NCBI GenBank assembly: GCA_031255875.1 | Contig: JAIRRR010000225.1 | Span: 1-20,253 of the forward strand | From: Treponema sp. | GTDB taxonomy: Bacteria; Spirochaetota; Spirochaetia; Treponematales; Breznakiellaceae | Length of the DNA stretch: 20,253 nt | Direction of reading: 5' to 3' | Shown here: positions 3,639 to 15,126 of the stretch, one piece after another | Layout: every line of letters starts with the position of its first letter | Position numbering within the stretch: the stretch's first letter is position 1 | Position numbers and translations under genes: made by a program | The notes under the pieces: model-generated | The model's input: the letters and a program-made list of their open reading frames with translations, nothing else | Told to the model about the DNA's origin: nothing | Database searches by the model: none

Positions 3639-5756
3639 GTGCAGGCAGCGGTGGACGACGCGGAGGAATTTGTTGACGACATTGAATTACCGGGCACCCT
3701 TTGCGGGGTAACCATCCGCTCCCCGGTCGCGCGGGGCCGCCTTGTCTCGATTGACTGCCCCGATCTGCCTGAAAACTGCACGCTTGTCCGCGCGCGGGAC
3801 ATTCCGGGCAAGAACTACCTGGAGGAGCTTAAAATCCCGGTTTTGGCGTCGTCCGCCCTGTCGTACATCGGCGAGCCTGTCGCCCTGCTCCTGGGGCCTG
3901 AGCGGCTGCTGGTAGAAAACCTGGCCTCGCGCTGCCGGGTCAACGCCGAGCCTGAAGATCCCCAGGGCGCTGCGGAAGATCAGCCCGGGGACAGCCGGGA
4001 CATCCGTATCGGGGAGCCGGACAGCGCCTTTCAGGAAGCGGCCCGCATTGTCGAGGGCGTCTACCGTACCGGCCCGCAGGAGCACTGGTGCTCCGAGCCG
4101 CCGGGGGCCCTGGCCGAATGGACGGGCAGCGGCGGTCAGGCCGGGGTCCGGGTCATTGCCGCCGCCCAGTGGCCTTTCCAGGTAAAGCGGGCCGTGGCGA
4201 AAACGCTGGGCATGGCGGTTGGCAGGGTAATGGTATCGCCGGCCCGTGTCGGCGTGCACCTGGACGGCAAGATCTGGTACCCCGCCCTCCTGTCCTGCCA
4301 CGCCGCGCTGGGGGCCTATATCACGAAGCATCCGGTCAAACTTATGCTCACGCGGCGGGAAGATTTCTTCTACAGCCCCAAGCGCACGCCCTCGGAAATA
4401 CGCATACGCAGCGCGGTCGGGGAAAAGGGCCGGCTTCTGGCGAACGAGATCACCGTCACGGCCGACATGGGCGCGTGCAAGGTTTTCGCGGACGAAACGC
4501 TGGACCAGTGCTGCCTGGGTTCCCTGGGGATATACAAACAGCAGTGCGTCAGAATAAACGGAAAGGCCGCCAGCACCAATATCCCGCCGACCGGGCCCTT
4601 TGCCGGCTTCGGCCTTGCCCAGGGTTTTTTTGCCATGGAAAGCCAGGCGGCCCTGATCGCCGATACCCTTAGGATCAACCCGGTGGAGTGGCGCAAGGAG
4701 AACATGCTCTCCCGGAAAAAAAGCCTGGCGATAGGCATTCCCTTTGACGAGGATATTTTCCCCGAAAAACTCCTTGACACCGTTGCCGCCATGGGGGACT
4801 ACCACCGCAAATGGGCGGCATACGAGACGCTCAGGGGCTACCGGCGTTCCCGGGGCGGGCCTGAGAAAAACGAGCCGCTCAGGGGCATCGGCATCGCGGT
4901 CGCCTACCAGGCCAGCGGTTTTTTGCACAGCGCGGTTGACAAGGGCGCCTATGCGGTGGAAATGACCCTGCACAAAGACGGCTCGCTGGAAATCGCGAAC
5001 AGCATGGTCTTTTCCAGCGGCGATTACGTTTCTATATGGAAGAATATCGTTTCGGAGATTCTGGCGCTGGACCCCGGGCATATCCGCGTCATCAGAGGCG
5101 GCACCGATACCGCCCCCGATTCAGGCCCGGCCTGCCTCTCCCGGGGTATCACGGTGGTAACGCAGCTGGTGGAGCTTGCCGCCGCCGCCATACGGAAACA
5201 GCGTTTCAGGGACCCGCTGCCTATTACGGTGCGCCGTTCCTGCAAATGCGCCTACGTGCCGCCGTGGGGGGCGGAAACCGGCAGGATTGACCGGAACGCC
5301 TTTTCCCACGCGGGATGGGGGGCCGCGGTTGTGGAGGTGGAGATCGATCCGGTGGAATATACCCCGAATATCCGGGGGGTCTGGATGAGCCTGGACGGCG
5401 GCAAGATACTTTCCCAGAGGCGGGCGTGGCGGTCCGCGCGTTTCTCGATCATACAGGCCCTGGGCTGGGCTTCCCGGGAAAGGCTCAGCTACGAGGAGGG
5501 CCGTATCCCGGACGGGCAGTTCCTGGCCTACGATCTTCCCAATCTGCGGGAAATACCGCCTATCCACATCGACTTTATCTTCAACGAAACCGCGTCCCCC
5601 AAGGGAATCGGCGATATCCCGTTCAACTGCGTCCCCGCCGCCTTTGCCCAGGCGGTTTCGCAGGCCGCGGACCATCACTTTGCGCAGCTTCCGGTTACGG
5701 CCAGGGATATATGGGACGCAGGCAAATTCGGGCGGCCGGGGGACGCCGTGCCATGA
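3639..5756 (+). CDS. Xanthine-dehydrogenase-family molybdopterin-binding subunit, divergent
   Basis: A 705-residue homologue of the large (XdhA/XdhD-like) subunit of molybdenum hydroxylases, which oxidise purines, aldehydes or N-heterocycles. Family landmarks: FVDDIELPGTL with TIRSPVA near the N-terminus, YIGEPVALL, QEHWCSEP (147-154), PVKLMLTRREDF, and LPVTARDIWDA at the end. Key motifs are altered: the usual GGxFGGK is GVHLDGK (205-211), FRGFG is FAGFG with A322 for Arg, the expected GQG stretch is SSGDYVS (459-465), and the catalytic GxGE is GIGD with D659 for Glu. The start is uncertain. GTG 3639 is used here; GTG 3651 has better spacing from GGGAG (3635-3639), and the frame opens only after a stop at 3591, so the N-terminus is short for the family. 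The stop overlaps the next gene by four bases (ATGA). Confidence 0.85.
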   Translation: MQAAVDDAEEFVDDIELPGTLCGVTIRSPVARGRLVSIDCPDLPENCTLVRARDIPGKNYLEELKIPVLASSALSYIGEPVALLLGPERLLVENLASRCRVNAEPEDPQGAAEDQPGDSRDIRIGEPDSAFQEAARIVEGVYRTGPQEHWCSEPPGALAEWTGSGGQAGVRVIAAAQWPFQVKRAVAKTLGMAVGRVMVSPARVGVHLDGKIWYPALLSCHAALGAYITKHPVKLMLTRREDFFYSPKRTPSEIRIRSAVGEKGRLLANEITVTADMGACKVFADETLDQCCLGSLGIYKQQCVRINGKAASTNIPPTGPFAGFGLAQGFFAMESQAALIADTLRINPVEWRKENMLSRKKSLAIGIPFDEDIFPEKLLDTVAAMGDYHRKWAAYETLRGYRRSRGGPEKNEPLRGIGIAVAYQASGFLHSAVDKGAYAVEMTLHKDGSLEIANSMVFSSGDYVSIWKNIVSEILALDPGHIRVIRGGTDTAPDSGPACLSRGITVVTQLVELAAAAIRKQRFRDPLPITVRRSCKCAYVPPWGAETGRIDRNAFSHAGWGAAVVEVEIDPVEYTPNIRGVWMSLDGGKILSQRRAWRSARFSIIQALGWASRERLSYEEGRIPDGQFLAYDLPNLREIPPIHIDFIFNETASPKGIGDIPFNCVPAAFAQAVSQAADHHFAQLPVTARDIWDAGKFGRPGDAVP

Positions 5757-6238
5757 TTATCAAATTCGTCCTGAACGGCGACGATGTTACCCTCCGCACC
5801 GACGCGGATACCCGGCTGATCGATATTCTGAGGAACAGCTTCAATTTGACAGGGGCGAAAATAGGCTGCCTTTCCGGGATCTGCGGGGCCTGTTTCGTGC
5901 TTTTTAACGGAAAAGCCGCGCCTTCCTGCATCATTCCCGCCTTCAAGCTCCAGGGCAGTGAGATCATCACCATCGAGGGCTTTGTCCAGTACAATGAATA
6001 CCAGGACATAGCGTCCGGCTTTGCCCAGGCCCGGGTGGAATTCTGCGGCTTTTGCGACACCGGGAGGATATTCGCCACGGAGGCGCTCCTGGAGAAAAAG
6101 CCCCGCCCCAGCAGGGAAGAAATACTCGAGGCCTTTTCCGGAATCAAATGCCGCTGCGCCGAGCCGGAAAGCCTTGTGTCGGGGGTCCTGGCCGCCGCGG
6201 AATTCAGGCAACGGAGGCTGTATGGCAGAGGCGCGTAA
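5753..6238 (+). CDS. [2Fe-2S] subunit of a xanthine-dehydrogenase-type complex
   Basis: A 161-residue electron-transfer subunit with two [2Fe-2S] clusters. The plant-ferredoxin-type cluster is ligated by C39, C44, C47 (GCLSGICGAC) and C59. The second, helical-domain cluster is ligated by C98, C101 (FCGFC) and C133, C135 (CRC). All eight ligands are present. Family members normally read QCGFCTPG and CRCTGY; here they read FCGFCDTG and CRCAEP, so the glutamine that usually contacts the pterin is a phenylalanine. The ATG at 5753 lies inside the stop of the Mo subunit (ATGA), and the frame runs 17 bases into the FAD subunit, so the three proteins are translationally coupled. An in-frame start at 5315 would only read through the Mo-subunit gene. 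Confidence 0.9.
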   Translation: MIIKFVLNGDDVTLRTDADTRLIDILRNSFNLTGAKIGCLSGICGACFVLFNGKAAPSCIIPAFKLQGSEIITIEGFVQYNEYQDIASGFAQARVEFCGFCDTGRIFATEALLEKKPRPSREEILEAFSGIKCRCAEPESLVSGVLAAAEFRQRRLYGRGA

Positions 6239-7127
6239 CGATACGGAAACAGCAAAACAGTTGTTCTACCCTGCCGCCTTGCAGGAGCTTTTTGCCGTCT
6301 GGGAGCGCTCCCCCGGCGCGTCCCTCTCCGCGGGGGCCACTTCCCTGTCTTTCCGCCGGGCGGGCGGCTATAAAATTTCCCTCCCGGAACAGATCATTTC
6401 CCTGGGCGGCCTGGACGAGCTGCAGCGATTCTCCCGTACCGAGCGCTACCTGGAAATAGGCGCTACGGTACGCCTTGACGAGATCGTCAGCATGGGGAAG
6501 ATGGTCCCGGACGTTTTTACGCGCGCCCTCAGCGCGGCCGGAAACCCCCAGATGCGGAACCTTGCCACCATAGGCGGGCATATCTGCTACCCTTTCAAGC
6601 AGCTTGACGCCGTCGCCCCGCTCATCGCGCTCGACGCCCGTTACGAGCTGAGGACCGCGTCTTCCTCTCGCTGGATACCGGCATTCCGTTTTTCCTCCGC
6701 CCCCGGCCTTCCGTCCATCAGCCCCGGGGAACTGCTCACCAGGATCAGGATTCCCCTGGATATATGGAACTATTCCGCCTACAAAAAATTCACCGATCCC
6801 TATACCGGGGACACTGCGGTCGGCTCCATGGTTGTTATCGCCCGCTGCCAGAAGAATATCCTTACCGATATACGGATAGTTTACGCCGGCCTGGCGGCGC
6901 TCCGGGACAGAAACAGCGAGTCGGTCCTTACCGGCAAACAGCTGCCCCTGACCGAGCGGGATCTGGCGTATTTTATGGGGCTCTGGGCCGATTATCTTTC
7001 GGCGGCCGGCCCCGCCCTGCCCCGGGAGGGCGATCCCGCCTCCGGGACGGCCGGGGGGCTGAACGCCCTGATGCGCGCCGAGATGCTCAATTTCATCGAA
7101 TCCTGCCTCCGCGATTTGGCGGAGTAG
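6222..7127 (+). CDS. FAD-binding subunit of a xanthine-dehydrogenase-type complex
   Basis: A 301-residue flavoprotein of the CoxM/XdhB family that passes electrons from the iron-sulphur subunit to NAD or another acceptor. FAD-binding landmarks: SAGATSL (36-42), corresponding to the usual AGGTDL loop, and RNLATIGGH (112-120), corresponding to the usual ATIGGN, followed by DAVAPLIALDA (129-139). The C-terminal domain reads AYKKFTDP then a small-residue stretch with DIRIVYAGLA, as in the family. The ATG at 6222 is preceded by a good site (GGAGG, 6213-6217) and overlaps the previous gene by 17 bases; a longer frame from 6021 is out of family. No cofactor-insertion gene (XdhC, MobA) accompanies the trio here. 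Confidence 0.87.
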   Translation: MAEARNDTETAKQLFYPAALQELFAVWERSPGASLSAGATSLSFRRAGGYKISLPEQIISLGGLDELQRFSRTERYLEIGATVRLDEIVSMGKMVPDVFTRALSAAGNPQMRNLATIGGHICYPFKQLDAVAPLIALDARYELRTASSSRWIPAFRFSSAPGLPSISPGELLTRIRIPLDIWNYSAYKKFTDPYTGDTAVGSMVVIARCQKNILTDIRIVYAGLAALRDRNSESVLTGKQLPLTERDLAYFMGLWADYLSAAGPALPREGDPASGTAGGLNALMRAEMLNFIESCLRDLAE

Positions 7128-7143
7128 CCGGGCCGGGGGCGGT

Positions 7144-9126
7144 ATGAAAGAAATCACCATTAAAGATATTGCGAGATATGCCGGTGTCTCCATCGCAACG
7201 GTATCGCATGTTATAAATTCTACTCGTTATGTAAGCCCCGAGCTGACAGAACGGGTCATTAAAACTATAAAAGAGAATAATTATAAAAAAAACATAGTAG
7301 AAACTGTCAATATTGGCAAGCGTTCGCAAATAGCGTTTCTTGTTCCATGTCTTGAGGATTATATCCTATTGGCCGATGCCCTTTCCAGAAATTTATTACA
7401 ATTTGGGTATACATTATCAATATCAATAACGAATGATGATGTCACCATTGAAAAACGGCTTTTAACAGCATTGCCCGGCAATAAATCGATAGGGGGTATT
7501 ATATTGGTACCCGCCGCAGACACTTCTGATTATTACGAAAATATTCTAAACCGGACTATACCGCTTGTTTTAGCAGATCGTTTTCTTGATAATAACATTG
7601 ATTCTATTACAACCGATCACGAACTGGCCTTGTACAAAAGCACCGCTTATCTAATTCAATGCGGGCATGACAGGATCGTCATAATAACGGGGAAAAAGAA
7701 CAGTAGCCTCGCCAGAGAGCAAGTATCAGGATATCAAAGAGCTTTGACCGCGAATCATATTCCGTATCATCCCGAATTGGTATTGGCATCTGACAGTTTT
7801 CGGGGAGAAATTACCCAGCAATTGCTGTATGGGTTTTACGAAAAAATAAAACCTACCGCCTTAATATCCGGGGTAAACAGGATTACCCCCAAGGTGCTGA
7901 GTTTTTTCGACTGTTACGGCATCGAGTACCCTAAGCAGATTTCATTTATAGGGTTTGGAAATAAAGAATGGACAGAACTTATTGATCCGCCGGTTACGAT
8001 AATAGAAGAAGATTTTGAAACTATAGGGGCCATTGCGGCGGCAAGGGTTATTGCCAAGATTGCCTCGCCCGACAGGCCGATATCGGTAAAAAAGCAGCGG
8101 ATACAGACCGGCTTCCTGCTTCGAAAATCAACCCAGATGATTGGGCGGGGGCCCTTTGGGGAAGAAGCTATACCCATTGAAAAATTAACCCTTTCGGAAA
8201 AGGAAATAGAAGATCTGCGGAGCGGTCATTTTAAAATCGGCATTTCCTTTCATTACGGCAATACAGCATGGACGCGACTGCATGAAAATGGAATACGGGA
8301 TACCCTGGAAAAATACGGCGTAAGAATCCTTTCTGTTACCGAGGCCCATTTTAATCCTGAACTTCAGGTAACACAACTGGAAGGCTTGCGGATGCAAAAG
8401 CCCGATGCCATTATCGCCATTCCCTCTGATGATGTTGCCACAGCAGCTAAATTCAAGGAACTGGCAAGAGAGGTAAAACTAATCTTCATCAGTAATATTC
8501 CTTTAGGCATGGAAACAAGCGAATATGCGTCCTGCGTTTCCATAAACGAACGGGAAGGCGGCTACAACGCCGGAGTCCTCTTGGGGGAGCATTTCAAAAA
8601 CCGTGATAAAGTTCATATTGGCTTCATCTCGCATGGAGCGCCGTTTTACGGAACACATTTACGTGACGGGACGGCAGAACAGGTAGTCCGTGAAAATTAC
8701 CCTAATATTGAGATAGTCTCGGTAAAGTACTTCCACAGGATTGAACGCGCTTATGAAGTATGTAGAGAAATGATCAAGGAGCATCCGGAAGTTGAAGGGC
8801 TGTACGTTTCGTGGGATGTACCCGCTCTCCGGGTGATTATGGCACTCAAGGAACTCTGCCGGGAGGACATCGCTATTTTTACTTGTGACTTGGACGTAGA
8901 GATCGGGTCCTATTTGGCCAGAGAGGAAATGGTCAGGGGGCTTATTGCCCAACGCCCCTATATCCAGGGAACGGCGGTTGGGCTGGCAACCGCAAAGGCT
9001 CTGCTTGGAAAGGGGGAATACAAGTATATCGGCGTTTCTCCGTATATAGTACAAAAAACCGAATTACTCAAGGCATGGGAGGATATTTTCCACACCCCCA
9101 TTCCTGTAGATTGGAAATTGTCGTAA
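7144..9126 (+). CDS. LacI-family regulator fused to a sugar-binding-protein domain
   Basis: A 660-residue protein, nearly twice the usual 330-350 of LacI/GalR repressors. Residues 1-50 are the helix-turn-helix (TIKDIARYAGVSIATVSHVIN). Residues about 58-330 are a full LacI sensor (IAFLVP, then ISFIGFGNKEWTELIDPP, with LLRKST near 329). Residues about 348-660 are a second periplasmic-binding-protein-like domain whose order of motifs matches the mature substrate-binding protein at 10257-11390: FHYGNTAW, PDAIIAIPSDD, SVSINEREGGYNAG, YVSWDVPA, GLIAQRPYIQG, SPYIVQKTELLKAWEDI. No signal peptide is present, so it acts in the cytoplasm. It probably represses the operon starting at 9335 through the palindromes in 9134-9305. 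It begins 16 bases after the FAD-subunit stop with a weak site (GGGGGCGG). The first half is more AT-rich than the second. Confidence 0.93.
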   Translation: MKEITIKDIARYAGVSIATVSHVINSTRYVSPELTERVIKTIKENNYKKNIVETVNIGKRSQIAFLVPCLEDYILLADALSRNLLQFGYTLSISITNDDVTIEKRLLTALPGNKSIGGIILVPAADTSDYYENILNRTIPLVLADRFLDNNIDSITTDHELALYKSTAYLIQCGHDRIVIITGKKNSSLAREQVSGYQRALTANHIPYHPELVLASDSFRGEITQQLLYGFYEKIKPTALISGVNRITPKVLSFFDCYGIEYPKQISFIGFGNKEWTELIDPPVTIIEEDFETIGAIAAARVIAKIASPDRPISVKKQRIQTGFLLRKSTQMIGRGPFGEEAIPIEKLTLSEKEIEDLRSGHFKIGISFHYGNTAWTRLHENGIRDTLEKYGVRILSVTEAHFNPELQVTQLEGLRMQKPDAIIAIPSDDVATAAKFKELAREVKLIFISNIPLGMETSEYASCVSINEREGGYNAGVLLGEHFKNRDKVHIGFISHGAPFYGTHLRDGTAEQVVRENYPNIEIVSVKYFHRIERAYEVCREMIKEHPEVEGLYVSWDVPALRVIMALKELCREDIAIFTCDLDVEIGSYLAREEMVRGLIAQRPYIQGTAVGLATAKALLGKGEYKYIGVSPYIVQKTELLKAWEDIFHTPIPVDWKLS

Positions 9127-9133
9127 AATCTGG

Positions 9134-9153
9134 ATATTTTTACGTAAATTTAT
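9134..9153. promoter_or_regulatory. Putative operator O1 (TTTACGTAAA palindrome)
   Basis: The perfect core TTTACGTAAA occupies 9139-9148, with outer ATA/TAT arms matching after a two-base mismatch on each side. It lies 8 bases after the regulator stop and about 60 bases upstream of the -35 box. The central CG step is the usual centre of LacI-family operators. Its assignment to the upstream regulator is inference from position and repetition. Confidence 0.65.
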
Positions 9154-9172
9154 TGTTTATTCATTTCTGCGG

Positions 9173-9241
9173 GAAAAATATATAAATTTTTTACAAAAAA
9201 ATATTTGACAGGATAAACAGAGCAGTGTTATAATCATCACG
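9173..9241 (+). promoter_or_regulatory. Sigma-70-type promoter with AT-rich UP-like element
   Basis: The -35 TTGACA (9205-9210) and -10 TATAAT (9229-9234) both match consensus exactly and are separated by 18 bases. Immediately upstream, 9173-9204 is almost entirely A and T with several A- and T-tracts, as in UP elements that bind the polymerase alpha subunit. Transcription should begin near 9241. This would drive the operon from 9335 to 15126. Such a strong promoter would need repression, consistent with the flanking palindromes. Confidence 0.88.
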
Positions 9242-9270
9242 TGTTCAAAAGAACTGTATGCTTTTGAATA
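9242..9270 (+). other. Stem-loop at the 5' end of the operon transcript
   Basis: TTCAAAAG (9244-9251) and CTTTTGAA (9261-9268) form a perfect 8-bp inverted repeat around a 9-base loop; a G-U and a U-A pair can extend it to 9242-9270. It begins at or one base after the predicted transcription start. It could be a 5' hairpin that protects the mRNA, or a DNA-level protein site. The stem is AT-rich and the following run is short, so a terminator is less likely. Confidence 0.5.
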
Positions 9271-9287
9271 TTTTTACGTAAATATAT
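9268..9287. promoter_or_regulatory. Putative operator O2 (TTTACGTAAA palindrome)
   Basis: The perfect core TTTACGTAAA is at 9273-9282. Outer bases 9268-9271 pair with 9284-9287 after one mismatch. It lies about 36 bases downstream of the predicted transcription start. Its centre is 134 bp from O1 and 20 bp from O3, close to two helical turns, so a regulator could bind O2 and O3 on the same face and loop to O1. Confidence 0.68.
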
Positions 9288-9289
9288 AT

Positions 9290-9305
9290 TATTTTACGTA
9301 AAATA
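9290..9305. promoter_or_regulatory. Putative operator O3 (16-bp perfect palindrome)
   Basis: TATTTTACGTAAAATA reads the same on both strands over all 16 bases, with the central CG at 9297-9298. It is the most symmetrical of the three copies and is probably the strongest site. It lies within the untranslated leader, between O2 and the ribosome binding site of the IolE-like gene. Confidence 0.72.
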
Positions 9306-9334
9306 TATAAATTCCTTTTTTAGGAGGTGATTTT

Positions 9335-10156
9335 ATGAACGTTGCTTACATGACGAACGGCTGGGGAGCGGTTATGGCTCATTGTGCTGCGGCAAACAAT
9401 GTGAACGGCGCTTATTATGTTTCAACAGGGGCAGATGCGGAAGCCATTGCGGCGATTGCGTCTGCCGGGTATGGGCAAATTGAGATATTTGACGGCAATC
9501 TGCTCGCCTATGAAGGCCGGGAAAAAGAATTCAGTGAACTGCTCGGTGCGAACCACGTCTCGCTGCTGGCTGTTTATAGTGCCGCGAACTTTATTTACGA
9601 CGAAATACTCCCGGAAGAGCTTTTCCGGATAAGAAAGGCAGCGGCCTTCGCGAAAAATTTTGGCGCAACCCAGATTGCCCTGGGCGGCGGCGCGGTAAGA
9701 TATGACGGCATAAAAGAAGGCGATTATAAAAAACTTGCCGCAGCTCTGGACAAGGTATGCGGCGTAGCCGACGAACTGGAAATGACCGCGAGTTATCACC
9801 CGCACATGGGATCCCTTGTCCAATCTCCCGAACAATTGGACAAGGTTATGCCTTATACCCGTATCTGCCTGTGTCCCGATACCGGACACGTCGTGCTCGG
9901 CGGAGGGGACCCTGTTGCCATGGTTAAAAAATATACGGACAGGATTAAATATATTCACCTTAAGGATGTTACAAAGGCCGGAATGTTTTGCCCGCTTGGA
10001 GAAGGATGCATTGATTTCCCATCAATCGTGAGTATTCTTGATAAAAGCAATCAGGATGTTTTATACGCGATTGAATGTGACGGGTGGAACGGCGATTCCA
10101 GGAAGGGCGCGGAAATTACTTTCAACTATCTTAAAACAAAACTTAATTTCTCCTGA
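9335..10156 (+). CDS. IolE-like sugar phosphate isomerase/epimerase (TIM barrel)
   Basis: A 273-residue protein of the xylose-isomerase-like TIM-barrel superfamily (AP_endonuc_2). Metal-binding and barrel landmarks: E50 in QIEIFDGN, H155 and H157 in YHPHMGSLVQSPEQ, D182 and H185 in CPDTGHVVLGGGDP, H208-L-K-D211, GEGCIDFPSIV (223-232), and E247 in YAIECDGW. The YHPHMG, DTGH...GGDP and HLKDV...G.G.IDF pattern is closest to IolE (2-keto-myo-inositol dehydratase). A dehydratase, isomerase or epimerase acting on a keto-sugar or cyclitol is therefore likely, but substrate cannot be fixed. It is the first gene of the operon, with a strong ribosome site (AGGAGGTGA, 9322-9330) four bases before the ATG. 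It pairs functionally with the oxidoreductase at 11404. Confidence 0.85.
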   Translation: MNVAYMTNGWGAVMAHCAAANNVNGAYYVSTGADAEAIAAIASAGYGQIEIFDGNLLAYEGREKEFSELLGANHVSLLAVYSAANFIYDEILPEELFRIRKAAAFAKNFGATQIALGGGAVRYDGIKEGDYKKLAAALDKVCGVADELEMTASYHPHMGSLVQSPEQLDKVMPYTRICLCPDTGHVVLGGGDPVAMVKKYTDRIKYIHLKDVTKAGMFCPLGEGCIDFPSIVSILDKSNQDVLYAIECDGWNGDSRKGAEITFNYLKTKLNFS

Positions 10157-10199
10157 TTTTCAGGGGAATAAGTAACGGCATGGAAGTTTTTCGTGCCGT
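10148..10199 (+). other. Two tandem intercistronic hairpins before the binding-protein gene
   Basis: First hairpin: TTCTCCTGA (10148-10156) pairs with TCAGGGGAA (10160-10168) over 9 bp with one G-U and a TTT loop; the stop codon lies in the stem. Second: ACGGCATGGAA (10175-10185) pairs with TTTCGTGCCGT (10189-10199) over 11 bp with two G-U pairs and a GTT loop. Neither is followed directly by a T-run. They sit just upstream of the substrate-binding-protein gene, where such stems often mark RNA processing or protect the 3' end of an upstream message. Confidence 0.6.
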
Positions 10200-10256
10200 C
10201 AGTATGAAGCCAAAATTGGTTTTTATACAAAACTATTTTTTCGAAGGAGTTTCAGT

Positions 10257-11390
10257 ATGAAAAAGGGTTTGTTGGTAGTATTATGTGTACTGTTCGCCGT
10301 GTCATTCGTCTTTGCCGGCGGTGGTCAGCAGTCAGGCGGGGGAAGTGCGCCTCCGTCTTCGTCCGCTCCGATAGTACTTCCGTCAGGCGCGGTCATGAGT
10401 ACCGGCCCCCACGGAGAACAGGCCAGTCCGGCTTCCGATCTTTCACTGACTGAGGATGAGCTTGCCAAAATCAGGGCGGGCAAATACAAAGCTGCCATTT
10501 GTTTCCATTACAACGGGGACGACTGGTCGGCCGCGCAGGAAAAAGGCCTGCGGGATCAGTTCGGTAGAATGGGTATTGAGGTTGTCGCGGTTACTTCCGC
10601 CAATTTTAACGCTGCCCAGCAGAAAGCCGATATCGAAACTGTTCTTGCCTTAAATCCTGACGCGATCGTCTCCATACCGGTCGATGTTGTTTCAGCGGAA
10701 TCTGTTTTCAAGGATGCCGCGAGAAAAGGCGTCAAAATCGTGTTTATGGACAATTGCCCGGATAACATGATTGCCGGTACAGATTATGTTTCCGTCGTCT
10801 CGGCGGACAACTACGGCAACGGCGTCGCGGCGGCGGAAATAATGGGTGAAAAACTCGGCGGCAGAGGAAAAATCGCGATGGTATACTATGACGCGAATTT
10901 CTTTGTTACTAACCAGCGTGACGAGGCTTTCCGTAAAACAATCCGAGAAAAATTTCCCGGTATTACTATTGTTGAGGAAGCTGGTTTTAACGATGTCAAT
11001 AAAGGTGCGGAGGTCGGCGGCGCCCTCATCACTAAGCATCCCGATCTTAACGGGATTTACGCAACCTGGGACATTCCGGCAGAAGGCGTTGTGTCGGCGC
11101 TTCGGGCAAACGGTAGAAATGATATTATTGTAACTACTATTGACCTGGGTAATAATGTTGCCAGAATGCTTGCACAGGACGGAATAGTAAAGGGCTTGGG
11201 TGCTCAGCGGCCTTATGATCAAGGCGTGGCGGAAGCTATCCTGGTGGGATACGCGTTAATCGGCAAAAAAGCGCCCGGTTATGTCGCTCTTCCGCCATAC
11301 AAGGTCACTCACGAGAACGTACTGGAGGCCTACAAGGATATCTATTATGTTGACGCTCCGGCGGATATAAGAAACGTCTATAAAAATTAG
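10257..11390 (+). CDS. Periplasmic sugar-binding protein of the ABC transporter (RbsB-like)
   Basis: A 377-residue type I periplasmic binding protein (Peripla_BP_4 class) delivering a sugar to the downstream transporter. Residues 1-20 are a signal peptide (KK, a hydrophobic core, cleavage after VFA) followed by a Gly/Gln/Ser-rich linker. There is no lipobox cysteine at the cleavage site, so it looks freely periplasmic rather than a lipoprotein. The binding domain runs from about L64: KAAICFHYNGDDW, VTSANFN, PDAIVSIPVD, VSADNYGNG, ATWDIPAEG, GLGAQRPYDQG, LPPYKVTHENVLEAYKDIY. The same motifs in the same order form the C-terminal half of the regulator at 7144-9126. A good site (AAGGAG, 10244-10249) precedes the ATG. 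It is separated from the ATPase and permease genes by the oxidoreductase gene. Confidence 0.92.
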   Translation: MKKGLLVVLCVLFAVSFVFAGGGQQSGGGSAPPSSSAPIVLPSGAVMSTGPHGEQASPASDLSLTEDELAKIRAGKYKAAICFHYNGDDWSAAQEKGLRDQFGRMGIEVVAVTSANFNAAQQKADIETVLALNPDAIVSIPVDVVSAESVFKDAARKGVKIVFMDNCPDNMIAGTDYVSVVSADNYGNGVAAAEIMGEKLGGRGKIAMVYYDANFFVTNQRDEAFRKTIREKFPGITIVEEAGFNDVNKGAEVGGALITKHPDLNGIYATWDIPAEGVVSALRANGRNDIIVTTIDLGNNVARMLAQDGIVKGLGAQRPYDQGVAEAILVGYALIGKKAPGYVALPPYKVTHENVLEAYKDIYYVDAPADIRNVYKN

Positions 11391-11403
11391 AGGCAGGCAT
11401 TAT

Positions 11404-12576
11404 ATGAAAACGTACAACGTTGGTTTGATAGGCGCCGGTTTTATGGCAAAAGCCCACGCCATTGCGTATTCCGGTATGCCTATTTTCTTCTGGCCCGCTC
11501 CGGCCCTCGTGACTAAAAAGGTAATTGCCGATTTGACCCAAGAACGGGCCAGTGCGGCGGCCGCGCAGTTCGGATTTGAAAAAGGAACAGGAAACTGGAA
11601 GGACATCATACAGGATCCGTCGATTGACATTGTTGACATCTGTACGCCGAATGATGCCCACGCGGAAATAGCGATTGCCGCGGCGGCTGCCGGAAAGCAC
11701 ATCATCTGCGAAAAGCCCATCTCCAGAACTGTAGAAGAAGCCAAAGAAATGTATTTGGCCGTCAAAAAAGCGGGAGTCGTGAACATGCTGGCCTTTAATT
11801 ACCGGATGACCCCCGCAGTACAACTTGCCAAGCGGTATATTGACGAAGGTTCAATAGGGGACATTTTGGATTTCCGCGGTACCTATTTACAGGATTGGTC
11901 TGCGGACCCCAATTCACCTCTTTCCTGGAGATTCCAAAAGGATGTCTGCGGAAGCGGGGCCTTTGGGGACATCGCTACCCATGTCGTTGATATGCTCCGT
12001 TTCCTCATTGGCGACTTTTCGGAGATCAACGCCCGTATGGCTACGTACATAAAAGAGAGGCCCATACAGACGGGGACAACGGACAGCCTGGGTAATGTGA
12101 AAGGCGGTGCGGATGTCCCGAGAAAAAAGGTGGATGTTGACGATCAGTGCTGTTTGACCATTAAATGCGCGAACGGCGCCTTTGGTACCATTGAAGCGAC
12201 CAGGAACGCCTGGGGCCGAAATAATTATATCACATTTGAGATTCACGGAACGAAAGGCTCCATCTATTTCAACTACGAGAGGAGGGACGAACTTCAGGTG
12301 TGTTTTGCGGACGATCCCGGTGATAGGCGCGGATTCAGAACGGTATATACTGGTCCCGCGCATCCTTACGGGGAGGCTCTTTGGCCCATTCCTGCGCTTG
12401 GTATAGGTTACACAGAAACAAAGATCGTCGAGATGTACAAATTTGTCAAAGCGGTCACAGAGGGAAAAAGCGTTTCCCCCTCGTTCGAAGACGGTTACAA
12501 CATTGAATTGATCGGCGAAGCCGCGTTTAAGTCGGCAGCCTCCGGTCAATGGGAAAAAGTCGGAAAAATCGGCTGA
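11404..12576 (+). CDS. Gfo/Idh/MocA-family NAD(P)-dependent oxidoreductase
   Basis: A 390-residue dehydrogenase of the family that includes inositol 2-dehydrogenase and glucose-fructose oxidoreductase. The N-terminal Rossmann domain starts VGLIGAGFMAKAH (G10-A-G12-F-M-A15, with Ala where a third Gly is common), continues with DICTPNDAHAE, and has the signature C-E103-K104-P105, whose lysine is the usual proton-relay residue. The C-terminal domain has the catalytic GDIATHVVDM with D189 and H193 in the usual D-x3-H spacing. Length is normal. It starts 13 bases after the binding-protein stop with GAGGCAGG before the ATG. With the IolE-like enzyme it suggests oxidation of an imported sugar or cyclitol to a keto form followed by dehydration or isomerisation. 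No aldolase, hydrolase or kinase of an inositol pathway is present. Confidence 0.9.
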   Translation: MKTYNVGLIGAGFMAKAHAIAYSGMPIFFWPAPALVTKKVIADLTQERASAAAAQFGFEKGTGNWKDIIQDPSIDIVDICTPNDAHAEIAIAAAAAGKHIICEKPISRTVEEAKEMYLAVKKAGVVNMLAFNYRMTPAVQLAKRYIDEGSIGDILDFRGTYLQDWSADPNSPLSWRFQKDVCGSGAFGDIATHVVDMLRFLIGDFSEINARMATYIKERPIQTGTTDSLGNVKGGADVPRKKVDVDDQCCLTIKCANGAFGTIEATRNAWGRNNYITFEIHGTKGSIYFNYERRDELQVCFADDPGDRRGFRTVYTGPAHPYGEALWPIPALGIGYTETKIVEMYKFVKAVTEGKSVSPSFEDGYNIELIGEAAFKSAASGQWEKVGKIG

Positions 12577-12581
12577 CCCTG

Positions 12582-12619
12582 CCGCCATATCGTCCCCCTT
12601 GCAGAGGATGGTATGGCGG
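12582..12619 (+). other. Strong intercistronic hairpin before the ATPase gene
   Basis: CCGCCATA (12582-12589) and TATGGCGG (12612-12619) are exact reverse complements. The stem extends inward through TCGTCC/GGATGG with two G-U pairs, giving about 14 bp and a 10-base loop. It is followed by TTTATTCTCT, a weak T-rich stretch. It could act as a partial terminator that keeps ATPase and permease levels below those of the binding protein, or as an RNA-stability element. Confidence 0.62.
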
Positions 12620-12680
12620 TTTATTCTCTAAATAAATAGGCGTCTCAAGCCGGAAAACCTGACCGGAGATATAATTGGTT

Positions 12681-14177
12681 ATGAATGAATTTGTTCTGCA
12701 AATGAAAAACATTGTTAAATCCTTTTATGGCAACAATGTTTTGAAAAATGTGAATTTTAACCTTGAAAGGGGACACGTACACGCGATTGTAGGCGGAAAT
12801 GGCGCGGGGAAATCCACTTTGATGAAAATCCTGACCGGAGTTTACAAGAAAGATTCCGGCGAGATTCTTGTTGACGGTAAAAAAGTTGAGTTTTCCGGTT
12901 ATTCCGGTGCCACATCCGTCGGAATTCGCATGATATTTCAGGAGCTCAGCGTAGTCCCCACATTGACCGTGGTTGAAAATATCTATCTGAATCATGAGGA
13001 ACGAAAGGGGTTTTTCAATGACGATAAAGGCATGAGGGAAGGCGCAAAAAAACTTCTGGCCAGATTGGGGATTGACGTCCCGGTAAACGAAAAAATCGCC
13101 AATTTAAGCGTTGGTTACTGCCAGTTGATAGAAATTGCCAAGGCTCTTTCCGAAAAAGTAAAAATTCTTGTTATGGACGAACCGACATCCTCCCTTTCCG
13201 ACACCGAGGTAACGCGCTTATTCAATATTGTTAGAACCCTGAAATCAGAAGGTGTTTCCATCGTATATATATCACATCGGATGAATGAAATACTTGAAAT
13301 TTCTGACGAAGTGACCGTGCTCAGGGACGGAGAGCATATCATCACCGATGAAGCAAAGAATCTGACTATTGCCGGTATAATCAATCATATGCTTGGCGAT
13401 ACCGAAAGAAATGCCTTTGAGTACCACGAAAGGCGAAAAATCCAAAATCCGGGTGTTATGATTGATGTGAATGAATTGTGCGTTGACAATCTAATAACGG
13501 ATGTTTCGTTCCATGTAAATGAAGGTGAAATTGTAGGATTGGCAGGGCTCATGGGTAGTGGCAGAACGGAGATACTTGAGTCTCTTTTTGGAATAAGAAA
13601 AATACGAAAAGGTAAAATTACTATTCAGGGTAAGCCAGTTGAAATAAAAAACACCCATAATGCGATAAGGTCCGGTATTGCCCTTGTTCCCGAGGACAGG
13701 CGCAGGGAAGGACTCGTGCTTATCCATACTCTTAAAAACAATCTGCTGCTTGCGCTCTTTGACAAGGTAAAAAAGAGCAGGCTGTTCATTGACAGCGCCA
13801 AGATTAAGAAGATTTCCGAAGAGAGTATAGCAGATCTTAATATCAAGACAGGCAGCATTGATACACTGATAAGCAATCTTTCCGGGGGGAACCAGCAGAA
13901 AGTCGTTATTGCCAAGTGGCTTAAAAACGATCCAAAATTATTGCTCCTGGACGAGCCAACGGCAGGTATTGACATTGGCGCGAAGGGTGAAATCATCAAA
14001 ATAATCGAAAACTATGCTGTCAGCGGGAAGAGCGTTATTGTTGTATCTTCGGAAATATCCGAACTTGTGGCAATGTGTGACAGAATAGTCGTTTTGGTTA
14101 ATGGGAAAAAAGCCAAAGAACTTACCAGAAATGAAATAAATAATCAGGGGGTTATTCAGCATGCAATTCAAGGTTAG
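12681..14177 (+). CDS. Sugar ABC transporter ATPase, double-NBD (RbsA/MglA type)
   Basis: A 498-residue fusion of two nucleotide-binding domains that powers import with the adjoining RbsC-like permease. First domain: Walker A GGNGAGKST (38-46), signature LSVGYCQ (142-148), Walker B ending D166-E-P-T, and SHRMNE in the switch region. Second domain: a degenerate Walker A (GLMGSGRTE) as usual in this family, signature LSGGNQQ (400-406), and D424-E-P-T with AGIDIGAKGE after it. Start choice is open: ATG 12681 is used here, but an in-frame TTG at 12675 sits at a better distance from GGAG (12665-12668) and would add two residues. The gene overlaps the permease by 17 bases. Confidence 0.93.
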   Translation: MNEFVLQMKNIVKSFYGNNVLKNVNFNLERGHVHAIVGGNGAGKSTLMKILTGVYKKDSGEILVDGKKVEFSGYSGATSVGIRMIFQELSVVPTLTVVENIYLNHEERKGFFNDDKGMREGAKKLLARLGIDVPVNEKIANLSVGYCQLIEIAKALSEKVKILVMDEPTSSLSDTEVTRLFNIVRTLKSEGVSIVYISHRMNEILEISDEVTVLRDGEHIITDEAKNLTIAGIINHMLGDTERNAFEYHERRKIQNPGVMIDVNELCVDNLITDVSFHVNEGEIVGLAGLMGSGRTEILESLFGIRKIRKGKITIQGKPVEIKNTHNAIRSGIALVPEDRRREGLVLIHTLKNNLLLALFDKVKKSRLFIDSAKIKKISEESIADLNIKTGSIDTLISNLSGGNQQKVVIAKWLKNDPKLLLLDEPTAGIDIGAKGEIIKIIENYAVSGKSVIVVSSEISELVAMCDRIVVLVNGKKAKELTRNEINNQGVIQHAIQG

Positions 14178-15126
14178 TTCCCTAAAAGAAATTGATTGGA
14201 GCAGATACATTGTTTATATCGCGTTCGTTATCGTTTTTCTCTTCCTTTCAATTTGGCTCGGAGGGCGGGGTTTTCTGTCAGTGAACAACGTGTTAAATAT
14301 TACACGGCAGACCTCTATGATAACCATTATGGCTGTTGCTATGACTTTTGTAATCGGGGCAGCCCAAATCGATCTCTCAATTGGATCAATAGTCGCCCTC
14401 TCCTCTCTGGTATGCGCCCTGCTTCTACGTTCAACGAATAATATAGCTTTGGCTCTTGCCGCATCTGTCGCGATCGGCATTTTTGTAGGCGCGATCAACG
14501 GCTTATTGATAACTAAATTGGGAATACCGGCATTTTTGGCAACCTTGGGTATGATGGGCATTATCCGGGGTATTGGAATGTGGATAACCAATATGGCGGC
14601 TATTGTCATTACCAATGAAACGTTTAATTTCGTTTTTGGTGTTGGTAACATCGGAGGCTGGTTTCCTGTTCTCCTTATCTGGACGGTTTTATTTGTCGTA
14701 TTCGGCGTCATTTTGCTCAATAAAACGCCTTTCGGCAAAAAAACACTTGCAGCCGGGGGAAATGAGACCGCAGCTCGCTTTACGGGGATCAATACCAGCA
14801 AGGTCAAATTGATGACTTTTATTATGAGCGGCGCTTTCGCGGCTTTCGCGGGAATTCTTTATGCAGGTAGAATGCAGGCGGGGCGCTATACCTTTGGAGA
14901 AGGAGATGAAATGTCCACAATCGCGGCTGTAATCCTTGGGGGAACCAGTATGGCAGGAGGGACCGGTTTTGTTATTGGCACCCTGATAGGCTCGCTTCTG
15001 ATGGGAATGATAAACAACGGCCTTATACTGGGCGGACTCAGCGTCAGCCAGCAAACCATCGTCCGAGGGGTAATCATCATTCTGGCTGTTGCGCTATCAA
15101 ATGTGACCAGGAAAAAAGCGAATTAG
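14161..15126 (+). CDS. Sugar ABC transporter permease (RbsC-like)
   Basis: A 321-residue integral membrane protein of the BPD_transp_2 family. About eight to ten hydrophobic segments run from residue 15 onwards (YIVYIAFVIVFLFLSIWL first). Family signatures include AAQIDLSIGSIVALSS, the cytoplasmic loop KTPFGKKTLAAGGNETAARFTGIN that contacts the ATPase, and GGTSMAGGTGFVIGTLIGS near the end. Only one permease gene is present, so the channel is expected to be a homodimer, as in RbsC. The start overlaps the ATPase stop by 17 bases, indicating coupled translation. It is the last gene of the operon; a terminator follows directly. Confidence 0.93.
   Translation: MQFKVSSLKEIDWSRYIVYIAFVIVFLFLSIWLGGRGFLSVNNVLNITRQTSMITIMAVAMTFVIGAAQIDLSIGSIVALSSLVCALLLRSTNNIALALAASVAIGIFVGAINGLLITKLGIPAFLATLGMMGIIRGIGMWITNMAAIVITNETFNFVFGVGNIGGWFPVLLIWTVLFVVFGVILLNKTPFGKKTLAAGGNETAARFTGINTSKVKLMTFIMSGAFAAFAGILYAGRMQAGRYTFGEGDEMSTIAAVILGGTSMAGGTGFVIGTLIGSLLMGMINNGLILGGLSVSQQTIVRGVIIILAVALSNVTRKKAN

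Follow-up and report, generated by a model that had tools for sequence, protein, structure and literature searches.

LacI repressors are regarded as relatives of binding proteins, and a gene of Treponema sp. raises the question of how one such regulator came to contain two sensor-type domains and which of them reads the ligand. The gene lies on the forward strand at 7144..9126 of the 20,253-nt stretch of DNA analyzed here (hereafter the window). It had been predicted to encode a LacI repressor carrying a copy of its own transporter's sugar-binding domain, which would read the imported ligand with the same pocket and might integrate a second ligand through the first sensor.

Architecture and distribution of the fused regulator

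The ORF encodes 660 aa and contains no internal stops. Pfam assigns a LacI helix-turn-helix (HTH) to residues 5-50 (7156..7293, forward strand; PF00356, E 5.9e-17), Peripla_BP_1 to residues 73-309, Peripla_BP_3 to residues 168-330, and Peripla_BP_4 to residues 365-623 (E 2e-27). The hinge region (residues 48-59, 7285..7320) has no usual PN..A motif according to residue counts, the local alignment being uncertain. It is followed by the first, LacI-type sensor (residues 60-335, 7321..8148), a periplasmic-binding-like effector domain recognized by PF13377 and PF00532 above their cut-offs and by structure matches to CcpA, PurR and RbsR. Behind this HTH and sensor, in the same frame and with no signal peptide seen, comes the captured binding-protein domain (residues 336-660, 8149..9123). 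Its residues 336-658 align with residues 50-372 of the substrate-binding protein (SBP) encoded at 10257..11390, with 36% identity and 57% positives (325 aa, E 6e-78). The N-terminal ~340 residues of the regulator gave only a chance-level BLAST match to this SBP (best E 0.78). The predicted order of a LacI HTH and sensor followed by an SBP-like stretch was thus borne out; the match starts earlier than in the ~310 residues originally proposed.

This earlier start, at residue 336, lies ahead of Peripla_BP_4 and corresponds to the linker of the mature SBP, where the two proteins share a GPxGE arm (GPFGE...LSEKEIEDLRSGHFK versus GPHGE...LTEDELAKIRAGKYK). The arm was found in 121 of 126 fused proteins and in 143 of the 151 proteins of the free-SBP set (redundant sequences were kept in both sets, and the 151 included seven truncated fused proteins that were later removed). 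The genome itself has 17 Peripla_BP_4 matches; among the 12 loci read, of which two (L023 and L028) had a poor ORF choice, only the window SBP has the arm. The second domain therefore belongs to the same SBP subfamily as the binding protein of the adjoining transporter, as had been claimed. Pfam, the SBP alignment and phmmer matches to solved sugar-binding proteins all point to a binding-protein fold for the C-terminal half.

An assembly error or frameshift at 8160-8190 could have joined two separate proteins artificially. This is excluded by the intact open frame, by database proteins with the same four Pfam domains (below) and by full-length relatives in eight other genomes: L015 (88% identity), L016 (82%) and L017 (76%), and G376, G370, G228, G091 and G209 (43-45%). 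G487 and G630 carry the same DNA as L015 and L016 and were counted once; G376 and G370 are mutually close, as are G228, G091 and G209. A LacI regulator with a complete sensor and a fused whole SBP-type domain, and hence two sensor-type domains in one protein, is confirmed.

To see where else the architecture occurs, 8000 candidates sharing the most words with the query were scored, giving 316 proteins at E<=1e-10. Each of the 120 matches listed, one of them the window protein itself, shows the same four domains in its precomputed Pfam annotation. Their sources include Treponema, Anaerobium, Paenibacillus, Ammoniphilus, Faecalicatena and a Chthoniobacterales MAG, and some fused database proteins are annotated as 'ribose transport system substrate-binding protein'. 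Across whole genomes the distribution of the fused regulator is patchy, with full-length copies in 6 of 392 genomes of the phylum, and with 6 of 390 in the order and 6 of 394 in a class-level search with the L030 query; the three genome sets overlap. On plasmids, none of the 50 matching records (E<=1e-30) covers 80% of the query, and no viral contigs were confirmed with P0045. Three other long frames with a LacI HTH (G692 C9, 663 aa; G680 C127, 556 aa; G680 C7, 474 aa) do not look like fusions; judged by their ends, they resemble ordinary LacI proteins behind an open stretch.

Narrow-phrase searches of the open-access literature found no description of this architecture or of regulators of these genes. 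A survey of LacI regulons defines LacI factors by two characteristic domains, and the words fused, fusion and additional domain are absent from the accessible part of its text (PMC4052901). The fused regulator is a widespread LacI variant that is undescribed in the literature searched, though present in databases.

Origin of the captured domain

The original prediction took the captured domain for a copy of the local transporter's SBP that reads the imported ligand with an identical pocket. The 36% identity to the neighbor, the shared arm and the sharing of most pocket residues speak for it. Phylogeny places the domain elsewhere. In a tree of 82 rows (36 fused domains, 34 free SBPs and 12 other SBPs, the last long-branched), built after exclusion of redundant rows and of two poorly chosen ORFs, a branch with 100/100 support sets all 36 fused domains apart; they are nested in the SBP subfamily, and the window SBP belongs to another clade. 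Seven of the 36 fused rows are truncated proteins, judged fused from a LacI remnant. An AU test rejected a group of five Treponema-type fused domains with the window SBP and P0180 (log-likelihood 372.8 lower), the group having been chosen after the tree was seen. Together, tree and AU test rule out duplication of the neighboring SBP as the source.

The idea that the fused domain always matches the adjacent transporter also failed in other genomes. In five other spirochaete genomes (L030-L034), the regulator's neighbor is a GH32 sugar operon whose SBP belongs to a different subfamily; the GH32 and SBP families were confirmed by Pfam in L030 and L032, and recognized as look-alike ORFs in L031, L033 and L034. 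Searching these five genomes with the window SBP at E<=1e-30 recovered the fused domain itself and no free SBP of the subfamily. The L030 fused domain matches the window SBP over 333 aa (33% identity, E 2.9e-68), but its match to its own adjacent SBP is limited to 114 aa (23% identity, E 4.7e-4), and the best match of the L032 fused domain to its adjacent SBP spans 44 aa (E 3.6e-4). The tree and these distant neighbor SBPs mean that the resemblance seen in the window reflects shared subfamily membership. Two substitutions at conserved SBP positions, Asp165 to Ser450 and Asp89 to Ala375, also stand against a local copy. We therefore reject this reading as to origin and, with its identical pocket, consider it very improbable.

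At L030:12042-17233 and L032:4272-9482, the regulator relatives adjoin CUT2 transporters accompanied by GH32 enzymes. Both of the GH32 proteins that were scanned scored far below the beta-fructosidase and sucrose-6-phosphate hydrolase cut-offs.

As far as sampled, the fusion appears to be old and of single origin. At least seven of the 120 fused proteins listed, P0112 included, may share a contig with one of the 120 free SBPs listed, to judge from equal lengths of their longest contigs; P0112 is an early branch within the fused clade. A derivation of the LacI half from the single LacI regulators that accompany such SBPs on plasmids of Klebsiella and Metabacillus found no support (27% identity each).

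The adjacent operon and its operator-like palindromes

Downstream of the regulator, five genes follow on the forward strand. They encode a sugar isomerase/epimerase-like TIM barrel, a candidate LgdB1 (9335..10156; PF01261; 43% to its Klebsiella plasmid counterpart); the GPxGE-subfamily SBP (10257..11390; PF13407; 57% to the Klebsiella plasmid SBP), with levoglucosan as its presumed ligand; a levoglucosan dehydrogenase (LgdA) by family score (11404..12576; NCBIfam NF052479.1, 710.3 bits against a cut-off of 650); a sugar ABC transporter ATPase (12675..14177; PF00005 in two stretches); and a sugar ABC transporter permease (14161..15126; PF02653), whose best NCBIfam scores are AraH- and ribose-permease-like and below cut-off. 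The window LgdA is 65% identical to the Klebsiella plasmid dehydrogenase, which itself scores 749.4 bits on the same family, and the Klebsiella cluster shares the gene order TIM-SBP-LgdA-ATPase-permease; the LgdA match in the Arthrobacter plasmid cluster is also 65%. Judging from family names and these similarities, the operon most likely imports and oxidises levoglucosan, a pathway treated in PMC7676230 and PMC10066097.

Two GPxGE-subfamily SBPs, on the Klebsiella and Arthrobacter plasmids, adjoin LgdA-like genes. On a Metabacillus plasmid (NZ_OK052578.1, 62786-77135; L043), three GPxGE-type SBPs lie within ~15 kb. The part of this plasmid region analyzed contains only a 29% match to LgdA. 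With no close LgdA there, levoglucosan need not be the ligand throughout the SBP subfamily, which probably covers several substrates.

The GC content is 42-51% across 7-15 kb (window 7001-15000) versus 57-69% on both flanks, which suggests that regulator and operon arrived together as one cassette. Upstream of the regulator, at 3639-7127, lies a xanthine-dehydrogenase-like set, with molybdopterin and FAD subunits recognized by Pfam and a 2Fe-2S subunit by eye. A xanthine-dehydrogenase-like FAD subunit also precedes the regulator in L016, and no such match was seen in L015 and L017.

Between the regulator and the TIM-barrel gene, the palindrome TTTACGTAAA occurs in three exact copies, O1 (9139..9148), O2 (9273..9282) and O3 (9293..9302), the last 20 bp after O2. 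A promoter of the form TTGACA-18-TATAAT with TG lies between O1 and O2 (9205..9234, forward strand) and matches the consensus at 12 of 12 positions; promoter-like sites in the scanned region, four in total, are not above the number in shuffles (mean 6.4). Counting both strands, TTTTACGTAAA occurs four times in the window (at three places) and in none of 100 shuffles. In the whole genome, WTTTTACGTAAAW is found at three places in this promoter and at one elsewhere. This extra copy (G000:C79:8466-8478), near ORFs read as MltG-like and PIN-like, is probably due to chance.

The same palindrome triple, with exact O1, lies downstream of the regulator in L015, L016 and L017; in L015 and L017 it precedes the same operon, and in L016 the contig ends there. 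O2 and O3 are 20 bp apart in all four Treponema-type loci, and O1 and O2 are separated by 134, 134, 132 and 111 bp, a spacing that would suit DNA looping. Among the GH32 contexts, L030 and L031 have two exact TTTACGTAAA sites where a CUT2 SBP gene begins in the GH32 operon, plus a one-mismatch palindrome directly before the regulator, and L032-L034 have three exact sites in and beside the region between the SBP and the regulator. The chance expectation from plain shuffles, calculated for L032 only, is 0.08 exact sites per 20 kb; one-mismatch palindromes also occur within genes. Palindromic, with a central CpG and near a promoter, the putative sites have the features of LacI-type operators. That the same palindrome stands next to different operons supports a conserved DNA target, to which the regulator would bind.

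Possible ligand sensing by the two halves

Among 52 fused proteins (the matches nearest the query plus two loci), the HTH (mean pairwise identity 0.677) and the captured domain (0.638) are better conserved than the LacI sensor (0.418) and the hinge (0.324), and the captured domain exceeds the LacI sensor in 99.9% of pairs. Between the window and L030, the values are 0.553 for the captured domain and 0.292 for the LacI sensor. The identities of the N- and C-terminal halves correlate (r 0.813), as they should if the two move as a unit. In the comparison of the window with L017, LgdA (0.931) and the free SBP (0.920) are the most alike, followed by the captured domain (0.815) and then by the LacI sensor (0.701). 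The captured domain is thus under constraint, to a degree between that of the LacI sensor and the stronger one of the free SBP. The contrast between the halves is only suggestive, since free SBPs are conserved anyway and single LacI proteins are not: mean identity is 0.578 among free subfamily SBPs (57 rows) and 0.297 among single LacI proteins (23 rows), the two sets being sampled differently.

Pocket positions of the captured domain were placed by alignment to solved sugar-binding proteins, in columns that we take to line ribose-type pockets. H370, W376, D429, F501, R507, W557 and Q603 are present in 52 of 52 fused proteins, D582 in 51, and D558 in 46, with E in the remaining six. The captured domain might instead be a structural module serving oligomerisation, DNA looping or as a docking surface, in keeping with the three spaced palindromes and with conservation that extends well beyond the pocket. 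Most pocket columns are invariant in the 52 proteins and match the free SBPs, however, and a purely structural role would not call for them; we regard this alternative as improbable.

The predicted identity of pockets with the transporter protein holds for most of the placed positions and breaks down at two, which lie in the pocket or next to it. SBP Asp165 corresponds to Ser450 of the regulator, with D in 143 of 144 free SBPs and S in 121 of 122 fused proteins; SBP Asp89, next to a conserved Trp, corresponds to Ala375, with D in 144 of 144 free and A in 117 of 122 fused proteins. Redundancy was kept in these counts, and one fused sequence in which the junction was not found was dropped. Other class-dependent columns beside conserved positions include Q220 to L506, E276 to L562 and G298 to D584. 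The replacements of Asp165 and Asp89 suggest a ligand or an affinity other than that of the free SBPs. The captured pocket is also kept in the GH32 contexts, where the 20 kb read at each locus contained no match to the window LgdA or TIM gene. Unless the pocket is less selective than its residues suggest, the ligand cannot then be the operon's own substrate in every case; the ligand of the captured domain may be shared across operons.

The LacI half has changed in a different manner. His22 in the HTH is found in all 52 fused proteins, and Arg22 in 19 of 23 single LacI proteins. Of the PN..A motif, which we take to be that of the LacI hinge helix, P49 remains in 1 of 52 fused proteins (20 of 23 single LacI) and A53 in 2 of 52 (23 of 23), so that, measured by its frequency in the 23 single LacI proteins, the motif is missing from the fused hinge. 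A hydrophobic residue is often present near the Leu position (L in 25 of 52), the local alignment being uncertain. R193 and D272, presumably the positions of LacI Arg197 and Asp274, occur as a pair in 1 of 52 fused and 18 of 23 single LacI proteins. These single-LacI controls comprise 21 ORFs picked by motif from 32 loci and two plasmid LacI proteins, and therefore lean to canonical forms. The loss mainly concerns the Asp, with D272 in 1 of 52 and R193 alone in 32 of 52. D273, found in 41 of 52, might be a stand-in for the lost D272; the window protein has Gln193, Gly272 and Asn273. The first pocket may thus be altered rather than dead, considering how often R193 and D273 occur.

These residues bear on whether the regulator takes two inputs, the LacI sensor and the captured domain reading different effectors, with release needing both or either and the LacI-sensor effector being operon-specific or a catabolite. 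Both domains are whole, T248, P263, S267 and P283 of the LacI half are invariant in the 52-row alignment, R193 and D273 persist as described, and the LacI half diverges faster, as an operon-specific sensor would. Against this, 51 of 52 fused proteins lack the usual R193 and D272 pair, and we consider the two-input reading rather doubtful. The predicted integration of two ligands is possible, but the first sensor mostly has no Asp of the kind usual in LacI proteins, which makes a protein with a single functional sensor no less likely.

We favor an explanation in which the gene product is a LacI repressor of the adjacent operon that arose by old fusion to a binding protein, with the captured domain as its main sensor; taken as a whole, it is on balance probable. 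The fusion partner of the LacI regulator would have been a periplasmic binding protein whose signal peptide was lost. Dimers or higher oligomers would occupy the three TTTACGTAAA operators around the promoter and block transcription, O2 and O3, 20 bp apart, being on one helix face. Sugar entering the cytoplasm would close the captured domain, and this closure would release the DNA. The original LacI sensor would mainly hold the dimer and relay the signal, or read a non-canonical effector. That the captured domain is the main ligand sensor is proposed from these sequence features with moderate confidence. A stricter form, offered tentatively, has the pocket, captured once, sense one common sugar across differing operons, with the LacI sensor and hinge decayed to a scaffold; as the hinge is then degenerate, DNA release would have to use a non-classical allosteric route.

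A LacI regulator has here gained a second binding-protein domain, on which it may now depend. If it does, this would be a natural sensor replacement; it would provide a blueprint for engineering sensors out of transporter proteins and would allow LacI control to be studied where the standard hinge is missing. The locus also provides a concrete candidate operator and regulator for the Treponema levoglucosan genes. In other levoglucosan clusters the regulators differ: that of the Klebsiella plasmid cluster is a single-sensor LacI protein, and that of the Arthrobacter plasmid cluster is a ROK protein. According to PMC7676230, the Bacillus smithii cluster has lgdA-B1-B2-C with LacI and ABC genes.

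A second LacI fusion is encoded in the same genome (L035:2903-5194, G000 contig C299; 763 aa), beside a Gfo/Idh-like gene. Like the window regulator, it joins a LacI HTH and sensor to a further, C-terminal binding domain of transporter type, but this domain (SBP_bac_1) is of another SBP class. Matches to this type at E<=1e-40 were found in 6 of 392 genomes of the phylum, its own included, with a partial match on C188. Compared with GPxGE CUT2 SBPs, the captured domain shares the GPxGE arm and the FHY..W, R, WD, D and QRP motifs; it differs in being fused to LacI with no signal peptide seen and in having Ser for Asp165 and Ala for Asp89. Compared with LacI/GalR repressors such as CcpA, PurR and RbsR, the regulator likewise has an HTH and a whole sensor, aligned near end to end, and palindromic operator-like sites with a central CpG; unlike them, it carries an extra SBP domain, has His22 for Arg22 and no PN..A hinge, and has mostly lost the R193 and D272 pair.
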